A stretch of 64,000 nucleotides of DNA, taken from NCBI RefSeq assembly GCF_014639315.1, contig NZ_BMFY01000013.1:62001-126000 (forward strand). Reading direction: 5' to 3'. The position numbers and the translations under genes were made by a program. The stretch is from Sediminivirga luteola (GTDB lineage Bacteria; Actinomycetota; Actinomycetes; Actinomycetales; Brevibacteriaceae). Shown here in pieces: positions 36,539 through 52,764 of the stretch (its first letter is position 1; each line of letters begins with the position of its first letter). The notes beneath the pieces are model-generated. The model searched no databases, had not been told where the DNA came from, and worked only from the letters and a program-made list of their open reading frames with translations.

Positions 36539-36982
36539 TCAGCGAGTCCGCACCAGGACGGTGCCGGCGGCCATATCGTGGCCGCCGCGCCGGTCCGCAT
36601 CCCATACGACGGCCGGCAGGACCAGGCACAGCAGGACGGTGCGCAGCGCAGCCCGCAGCGGGCCGGCCCAGTTGCCGTCCAGCCGGACCACGCGCATTCC
36701 CAGCAGCCGGTGGCCGGGCGTACCGCCGGTCGTGCCCACCAGGAGCAGATTCACCACGGCGAAGATGAGCAGCGGGCCCCAGATGTTCTGCGGCAGCAGC
36801 CAGGCGGCGATGAGCGAGCTGGCAGCCCAGTCGATCAGCAGCGCCACGATCCGGCGGCCCAGGCCCGCGATCGATCCCGGCCCGTTCTCGGGCCGGCCGA
36901 GCCGCTGTCCGGGGTAGTCCTGTGCCTGCGGACCGGGCTTGGGCCCCTCGAGCCACGAGCCGAGATCGTCTCTGGAGATCAT
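36539..36982 (-). CDS. RDD-family membrane protein
   Basis: A 147-residue protein. The N-terminus SRDDLGSWLEGPKPG is typical of the actinobacterial group that precedes glnA. The RDD domain starts GLGRRIVALLIDWAASS, with the conserved Arg-x-x-Asp pattern, followed by TGGTPGHRLLGMRV and a last helix. The function is unknown; some RDD proteins are linked to Na+/H+ exchange. ATG 36982 was chosen because TAGAAT lies 7 bp upstream and the family usually begins here; an ATG at 36991 is the alternative. It diverges from glnA. Confidence 0.82.
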   Translation of the reverse strand: MISRDDLGSWLEGPKPGPQAQDYPGQRLGRPENGPGSIAGLGRRIVALLIDWAASSLIAAWLLPQNIWGPLLIFAVVNLLLVGTTGGTPGHRLLGMRVVRLDGNWAGPLRAALRTVLLCLVLPAVVWDADRRGGHDMAAGTVLVRTR

Positions 36983-36989
36983 GCGCTCC

Positions 36990-36995
36990 ATTCTA
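36990..36995 (-). promoter_or_regulatory. Probable -10 element of leaderless RDD gene
   Basis: TAGAAT on the minus strand, 7 bp before ATG 36982. It supports this start over the one at 36991. Confidence 0.45.
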
Positions 36996-37034: not shown

Positions 37035-37072
37035 GTAACATGCCGGAAACATAAGCGTCACGGGCGGGAAAC
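37035..37072 (+). promoter_or_regulatory. Perfect tandem GlnR box upstream of glnA
   Basis: Four elements at exact spacing: GTAAC (37035-37039), N6, GAAAC (37046-37050), N6, GTCAC (37057-37061), N6, GAAAC (37068-37072). This matches the actinobacterial GlnR consensus gTnAC-n6-GaAAC repeated twice, with no mismatch in the conserved positions. It lies about 75-110 bp before the glnA start, next to a -10-like TAGGAT at 37083-37088. It shows nitrogen control of glnA by GlnR, whose gene is outside the window. Confidence 0.85.
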
Positions 37073-37146
37073 CCGCGGAACCTAGGATGGCGGTAGCCCG
37101 ATGCGGCCTGGACGGTCCGCTAATCACCTGCACGCGAGGAGTGACC

Positions 37147-38571
37147 TTGTTCAACACAGCCGAAGAGCTCGTCGAATATCTGGAGAAGGAGGACGTCGCG
37201 TTCGTCGATGTCCGTTTCACCGATCTGCCGGGCGTCGTCCAGCACTTCAATGTGCCGTCGAGCTCCTACGGTCTCGACGAGATCAAGGAGGGACTGCTCT
37301 TCGACGGCTCGTCCATCCGCGGCTTCAAGGCGATCAACGAGTCCGATATGAAGCTGCTCGCCGATGTCTCCTCGGCGTTCATCGACCCGTTCCGCGCGCA
37401 GAAGACCCTCGTGGTCAACCACTCCATCGTCGATCCCTTCACCGACGAGGCCTACAGCCGCGATCCGCGCCAGGTGGCCGCGAAGGCGGAGGCCTACCTG
37501 AAGAGCACCGGCATCGCCGACACCGCGTTCTTCGGCGCCGAGGCCGAGTTCTACCTGTTCAACGACGTCCGCTTCCAGAACGAGCCGTACTCGAGCTTCT
37601 TCGCCGTGGACTCCGAGGAGGGTACCTGGAACACCTCCCGTCAGGAGGAGGGCGGCAACCTCGGCTACAAGACCCCCTACAAGGGCGGCTACTTCCCGGT
37701 GCCGCCGCAGGATCACTTCGCCGATGTGCGAGACGAGATCACCACGACCCTGGGTGCCGTCGGCATCAACGTCGAGCGCGCGCACCACGAGGTCGGCGGC
37801 GCGGGCCAGCAGGAGATCAACTACAAGTTCAACACCCTGCAGAAGGCCGGCGATGAGCTGCTCGCCTTCAAGTACGTGGTGAAGAACGTGGCCTGGCACA
37901 ACGGCTACTCCGCGACCTTCATGCCCAAGCCGATCTTCGGCGACAACGGCTCCGGCATGCACTGCCACCAGTCGCTGTGGAAGGACGGCAAGCCGCTGTT
38001 CTTCGACGAGAACGGCTACGGCAGCCTGTCCGATCTGGCGCGCTGGTACATCGGCGGCCTGATCAAGCACGCCGGTTCGGTGCTGGCCTTCACCAACCCG
38101 ACCATCAACTCCTACCGCCGCCTGGTCAAGGGCTACGAGGCCCCGGTCAACCTGGTGTACTCGGCGCGGAACCGCTCCGCGGCGATCCGCATCCCGGTGA
38201 CCGGCTCCAATCCGAAGGCCAAGCGCCTGGAGTTCCGGGTGCCGGACCCCTCGGGCAACCCGTACCTGGCGTTCTCGGCGCAGCTGATGGCGGGCCTGGA
38301 CGGCATCAAGAACCGGATCGAGCCGCCGGCGCCGGTGGACAAGGACCTCTACGAGCTGCCGCCGGAGGAGCTCGAGGGCATCGCGACCGTCCCGGACAGC
38401 CTGGACGAGGCGCTGAACGCGCTCGAAGCCGATCACGAGTTCCTCACCCAGGGCGATGTCTTCACCGAGGACCTGATCCAGGCCTGGATCGCCTACAAGC
38501 GCGAGAACGAGATCGAGGTCGCCAAGCTCCGTCCGACCCCGACCGAGTACGAGCTGTACTACGGCATCTGA
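37147..38571 (+). CDS. glnA: Glutamine synthetase type I, adenylylated form
   Basis: A 474-residue GSI-beta enzyme that makes glutamine from glutamate and ammonia in a dodecamer. Motifs are [17 protein letters not shown] (metal site), [19 protein letters not shown] (ATP/metal region) and NRSAAIRIP. The adenylylation loop DLYELPPEE has its tyrosine near residue 402, the target of GlnE encoded in the same window. The start was set at TTG 37147, giving the usual beginning FNTAEE with GGAG 5 bp upstream; GTG 37141 is possible. A GlnR box lies upstream and a hairpin follows. Confidence 0.96.
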
Positions 38572-52320: not shown

Positions 52321-52365
52321 CCCGCGTCGTCCCGTACCGCCGGTGCAGCTTTCGGTGGCGGGCGT

Positions 52366-52764
52366 GGATGGGCCGCCCGTACGCCGGGTTCTGTTCCTCA
52401 CCCGCGGGTGAGGCGATGATCATCCATCTAGCCCTGCCGTTGCCGGCAGAGTCGAGCGATCCACCCGACAGCTCGGGCGAGCAGCCCTGATAGCGCTGTC
52501 TGTCTGATCTTGCTCCGGGCGGGGTTTACCGAGCCGCGCCGGTCACCCGGCGCGCTGGTGGTCTCTTACACCACCGTTTCACCCTTACCGGCGCCTCGCG
52601 ACGCCGGCGGTCTGCTTTCTGTGGCACTGTCCCGCGGGTTACCCCGGGTGGGCGTTACCCACCGCCCTGCTCTGCGGAGCCCGGACGTTCCTCGTCGGCA
52701 CCGCACTCGTCTGCGCGAAGCAGCGCGGGAGCGGTCCCGCCGCGATCATCTGGACGACCCATCC
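52366..52764 (-). ncRNA. rnpB: RNase P RNA (type A)
   Basis: About 399 nt on the minus strand. The terminal P1 helix is perfect: the 13 bases at 52752-52764 pair with 52366-52378. Conserved type A elements are visible, including the P4 and P15 regions (on the plus strand GTTCTGTTCC near the 3' end, GCGTTACCCACC and GTCTGCTTTCTG in the middle). The minus-strand -10 TAGAAT (52772-52777) lies 7 bp upstream of the 5' end. RNase P removes tRNA 5' leaders together with RnpA. Ends are set by P1 pairing and may be off by a few bases. Confidence 0.92.

Follow-up and report, generated by a model that had tools for sequence, protein, structure and literature searches.

The gene for type I glutamine synthetase (glnA) in Sediminivirga luteola is preceded by a short stretch of evenly spaced repeats, and the question raised by this locus is which regulator reads them and which of the two flanking genes it controls. 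We analysed the locus within a window of 64,000 nucleotides (the whole stretch of DNA under study, whose numbering is used throughout), in the genome as a whole and across related genomes. The features that matter are the following.

36539–36982, minus strand: divergent gene for an RDD-family membrane protein, ATG at 36982 (PF06271 RDD, 40.4 bits, cut-off 24.1)
36990–36995, minus strand: TAGAAT, a -10-like element of the putative RDD promoter, with the start codon 7 nt downstream (leaderless type)
37035–37072, plus strand: four-element GlnR box with 11-nt steps, assigned by sequence match and conservation
37083–37088, plus strand: TAGGAT, a -10-like element of the putative glnA promoter, 10 nt past the box
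37136–37140, plus strand: GAGGA, the likely ribosome-binding site of glnA as read from the sequence
37147–38571, plus strand: glnA, the target gene, with a probable TTG start (TIGR00653 GlnA, 644.2 bits, cut-off 429.15; PF00120, PF03951)

The 38 bases of the box read GTAAC-ATGCCG-GAAAC-ATAAGC-GTCAC-GGGCGG-GAAAC, so that the elements GTAAC (37035–37039), GAAAC (37046–37050), GTCAC (37057–37061) and GAAAC (37068–37072) are separated by gaps of exactly 6 nt. Scored against the pattern GTNAC-N6-GNAAC-N6-GTNAC-N6-GNAAC, which has 16 fixed positions, the site reaches 16/16, and the rest of the window stays at 12 or below on both strands. The sequence-only reading, which had described a mismatch-free tandem GlnR box with exact spacing in the glnA/RDD divergent region, was right on both counts: the box lies between the putative TTG of glnA at 37147 and the RDD ATG at 36982, on the coding strand of glnA, upstream of the gene and adjoining its predicted promoter. 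The GlnR consensus of Streptomyces coelicolor is gTnAc-n6-GaAAc-n6-GtnAC-n6-GAAAc (Tiffert et al. 2008, as quoted in an excerpt of the review PMC10704036). The window box shows the same a-b-a-b order of gTnAc and GaAAc units with 6-nt gaps, and carries in all four elements the adenine at position 4 of the 5-mer that is termed irreplaceable in that excerpt. An Rfam scan of the window at gathering thresholds returned RNase P only, a bacterial class A RNA at 52365–52761 on the minus strand (282.1 bits), and no RNA element in the glnA leader.

The arrangement of box and promoter is conserved among glnA loci from other genomes. Our comparison set was the best 80 of at least 593 confirmed relatives, and within these best 80 a box of at least 13/16 occurs within 300 nt of the glnA start in 73; 33 of the 80 reach at least 15/16 and seven reach 16/16. 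A TAnnnT motif is placed exactly 10 nt past the box in 72 of these 73 box-bearing loci, as it is in the window. An alignment and a box profile combine the window with all the loci scoring at least 13/16 except L083, the one without the 10-nt spacing (72 of 73). The hexamer found 17 nt upstream of the -10-like element (ACGGGC, 37060–37065) bears on reading no likeness to a -35 element and falls inside the box. Since the box covers the -35 place and nothing there resembles a -35, the promoter is built like one in which an activator site replaces this element, and activation would be the expected mode of action.

On this sequence evidence, the stretch at 37035–37072 is very probably a GlnR operator of the standard actinobacterial kind, serving as an activator site for glnA. 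When nitrogen runs short, GlnR, an orphan regulator of the OmpR type, would fill the four 5-mers with four head-to-tail copies. From this position, immediately before a -10 element with no discernible -35, the bound copies would keep RNA polymerase at the promoter, and expression of glutamine synthetase would rise. Binding, activation and the nitrogen signal are all proposed here by analogy with other actinobacteria.

A box in a divergent region might also work both ways and govern the RDD gene, an effect which the sequence-only reading had raised. The RDD start codon is 52 nt from the box, and one Streptomyces gene is known to have its GlnR site on the non-coding strand (excerpt of PMC10704036). 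A divergent RDD relative is found upstream of glnA in the window and in 72 of the 80 comparison loci (the best 80 of at least 593). The distance from box to RDD gene varies widely among these loci, however, whereas the glnA side keeps its 10 nt almost without exception. Moreover, a leaderless-type promoter (TAnnnT, 5–8 nt, start codon) stands between the box and the RDD gene in 46 of 68 sequences, the window among them, a count in which the motif's chance frequency plays no part and for which the 68 are those with a box of at least 13/16 among 73 having an RDD relative, window included. With a constant spacing towards glnA and a variable one towards the RDD gene, the box offers no support for the possibility that GlnR also controls the latter, and we regard a two-way box as improbable.

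For the assignment of glnA to GlnR, the regulator itself has to be encoded. A search of the genome for glnR, whose absence had been named beforehand as grounds for abandoning the proposal, found one GlnR (G000:C6:33474-34190:-). The protein matches the Pfam families GlnR_1st (PF21695, 99.8 bits, cut-off 27) and winged helix (PF00486, 100.4 bits), its best two PDB matches span residues 9–235 and 8–222 of 239, and PDB 4o1h (Transcription regulator GlnR) aligns with the N-terminal domain. None of the 25 NCBIfam families listed for this protein, out of 39, is named GlnR or reaches its cut-off.

The link between regulator and box was followed in a sample of 60 genomes of the window's family, which we take to be the Brevibacteriaceae. 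GlnR is found in 50 at a threshold of E 1e-30 (all at 2.0e-39 or below); the best matches in the other ten have E 3.1e-27 or weaker, and each of these we take, by reading, to be an MtrA- or RegX3-type regulator. These ten genomes, each with its locus upstream of glnA, are:

G010 (L175), G013 (L178; 86% complete), G015 (L180), G020 (L185), G031 (L196)
G037 (L202), G038 (L203), G040 (L205), G055 (L219), G056 (L220)

glnA is found in 59 of the 60 genomes, and G050, which is 89% complete and has no glnA match at the threshold, was left out of the box comparison. With a box profile built without any member of the family, scores upstream of glnA lie between 19.8 and 52.3 for every one of the 49 genomes with glnR and between -33.1 and 14.9 for the ten without it; glnR and the glnA box are thus jointly present or jointly absent in 59 of 59 genomes (49 with, ten without). 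An intact box is seen in none of the ten, where three have decayed remnants and seven show no recognisable trace. In G055, G015 and G056 a decayed box stands 10 nt ahead of a TAnnnT motif; G055 scores 14.9, above the shuffle maximum of 7.8, and G015 scores 4.8, above the 99% level of the shuffles, which argues for remnants rather than absences. The remaining seven score -9.3 or lower.

Fisher's p for this agreement is 1.6e-11 with relatedness ignored. On a quick tree of a single gene, glnA, regulator and box each change three times and agree in three of three independent comparisons, for which a sign test gives p = 0.25, three pairs being unable to reach 0.05. These counts of change are silent on loss versus gain; the presence of the box in other actinobacterial genera makes loss the natural reading. 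The joint presence and absence of glnR and box supports GlnR as the probable reader of the site.

Within the family the box varies in detail. The step from box to -10 element in the 49 genomes with glnR is 11 nt in 38, 10 nt in nine and 9 nt in two, and in most glnR-bearing genomes the final two elements of the box are weaker (GACAT or GTCAT, then TTCAY). The fourth adenine is kept in all 196 elements of these 49 genomes, a figure partly owed to selection, as the sites were picked as best matches. The P-II protein is distributed independently of GlnR, being found in 18 of the 60 genomes (12 of the 50 with GlnR, six of the ten without). As a separate observation, three of the GlnR-less loci, L202 (G037), L178 (G013) and L203 (G038), share by eye a similar stretch before glnA with the look of an inverted repeat, approximately GGGGCGC...GTGGCGCCC, which also occurs in L016; in the GlnR-less group it might be the site of another regulator.

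Of the family's 50 GlnR matches, 37 cover just the C-terminal part of the query. A reduction of GlnR to its DNA-binding part in many Brevibacterium was considered on this account and dropped, as L159–L164 read through a receiver domain and a long linker that splits the alignment. Frames were read for these six of the 37 partial matches, and 16 of 20 loci contained the motif looked for, four being without it. The linker between the receiver and DNA-binding domains of GlnR is long and poorly conserved in L159–L164.

The site could instead be read mainly by another OmpR-family regulator of direct repeats, of PhoP or RegX3 type, with GlnR in a minor role. There are ten Trans_reg_C matches in the genome, one of them GlnR itself, and GlnR and PhoP cross-regulate amtB in Streptomyces (excerpt of PMC10704036). 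Yet the ten family genomes without glnR retain OmpR-type regulators and their box is lost or decayed all the same, and the window box departs from the GlnR consensus at no fixed position. We consider such a reader very unlikely and retain GlnR.

The reading in which an AmtR-like repressor of the TetR type runs the nitrogen genes, leaving the box as a relic, fares no better. The genome's 35 TetR_N matches leave room for a very divergent functional analogue; however, the Corynebacterium glutamicum AmtR protein (a query checked against PDB 5dy1) has eight matches in this genome, among which no AmtR ortholog was detected. The best scores only 29.1 bits, with 36% identity across a 66-residue stretch at the DNA-binding end, and six of the eight are confined to the first 79 residues; for scale, the Mycobacterium smegmatis AmtR reaches 126.5 bits against this query in another program. 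A relic would be expected to decay, as is visible in the three relatives without glnR, yet the box is intact. We judge this reading extremely unlikely. It is the genome search that excludes AmtR, the box alone being insufficient for that; with glnR present, no AmtR ortholog detected and regulator and box in agreement throughout the family comparison, the earlier claim that GlnR and not AmtR controls nitrogen assimilation in this organism gains support as a prediction. No convincing AmtR is seen in the ten GlnR-less genomes either (best E 1.0e-8), and the best AmtR match in the family (E 9.7e-14, 31% identity) belongs to a genome with GlnR.

The chance of a fortuitous match in a GC-rich genome is negligible and was rejected on a Markov control and a genome-wide scan: 14/16 or better is reached by none of 200 first-order Markov sequences of 64 kb (13/16 or better occurs 0.135 times per sequence, both strands), the box is the sole mismatch-free match in the genome (3,862,407 bases, 45 contigs), and its position and spacing are kept in other genera. 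Genome-wide there is one further place with two mismatches and 12 with three, 14 in all against five for a reversed control pattern.

Among the places where the sequence-only reading had proposed looking for further boxes, both amtB genes have a box-like site and glnA2 has none. The genome has two amtB genes, each with a P-II gene close behind, and a profile of the 72 other glnA boxes gives scores of 16.2 upstream of amtB1 and 8.3 upstream of amtB2, values reached by none of 200 shuffles in either case. By eye, the amtB1 site is GTAAC-N6-GAAAC-N6-GCGTT-N6-TTAAC, with AATACT, not a TAnnnT, 10 nt beyond it; that of amtB2 is GTTAC-N6-AGCGA-N6-TTAAC-N6-GAAAC, with TACCGT 10 nt beyond it. In this four-element register amtB2 scores -6.1, the value of 8.3 arising with TTAAC-N6-GAAAC as the first pair. 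Since amtB1 is without TAnnnT and amtB2 is low in register, the amtB sites are weaker evidence. The profile and shuffles showed no box upstream of glnA2, the small gene before it, the glutamine-synthetase-like L003 and L005, or glnR, and a weak match upstream of the glutamine-synthetase-like L004 was equalled by two of 200 shuffles.

A scan of the genome with a profile that contained the window's own site gave no further site with E < 0.1 among the 150 of 1080 candidates scored, and four more places at E 0.14 to 1, one of them the amtB1 site. Two of the four were judged chance-like on inspection. The fourth, a weak box-like match (E 0.14) in L224, at about 1501–1527, lies some 90 nt before a gene that is followed by a second; these are presumably ornithine-cyclodeaminase-like and oxidase-like, respectively, and the site is a possible amine-catabolism target of GlnR.

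The glnA box of S. luteola thus appears to be an ordinary site, a further instance of a familiar operator in a genome that has the regulator, with its function predicted. Control of glutamine synthetase in this organism can be assigned to GlnR with good confidence at the level of prediction, and the two amtB–P-II loci are indicated as further candidate targets. Of the by-products, the most interesting is that regulator and operator have disappeared jointly in three branches of the family, which makes the Brevibacteriaceae a natural experiment in which glnR and the glnA operator appear and vanish together. Tentatively, and at a little short of an even chance, Brevibacterium may have lost GlnR at least three times, with the operator each time erased or decaying and no AmtR ortholog as a substitute, leaving glnA either free of both known systems or under an undescribed regulator. 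If so, G055, G015 and G056 show an operator caught in mid-decay, and the family would be well suited to asking how glutamine synthetase is managed in actinobacteria that have lost this global regulator of nitrogen. A search of literature titles, most subscription journals lying outside its scope, found none on GlnR loss in Brevibacteriaceae among those listed.

Among known systems, AmtR of C. glutamicum likewise controls nitrogen genes in an actinobacterium, but it is a TetR-type repressor with no ortholog detected in the S. luteola genome. The S. luteola GlnR resembles, over most of its length, the GlnR proteins in PDB entries 8hih, 8hig, 8hml and 4o1h, which we take to be those of Amycolatopsis mediterranei and others, in its receiver-like domain and winged helix; the likeness is one of sequence similarity only, and 4o1h is the receiver domain alone. 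The closest parallel in DNA is the tandem GlnR box of S. coelicolor glnA, with the same gene, four elements, 6-nt gaps and all fixed positions, although binding there has been footprinted and the S. luteola box is known from its sequence (excerpt of PMC10704036). A transcription activation complex that depends on GlnR and has four binding sites has also been described (Shi et al. 2023, as reported in the same review); the S. luteola promoter, known from sequence alone, shares with it four head-to-tail sites just upstream of the -10 element.
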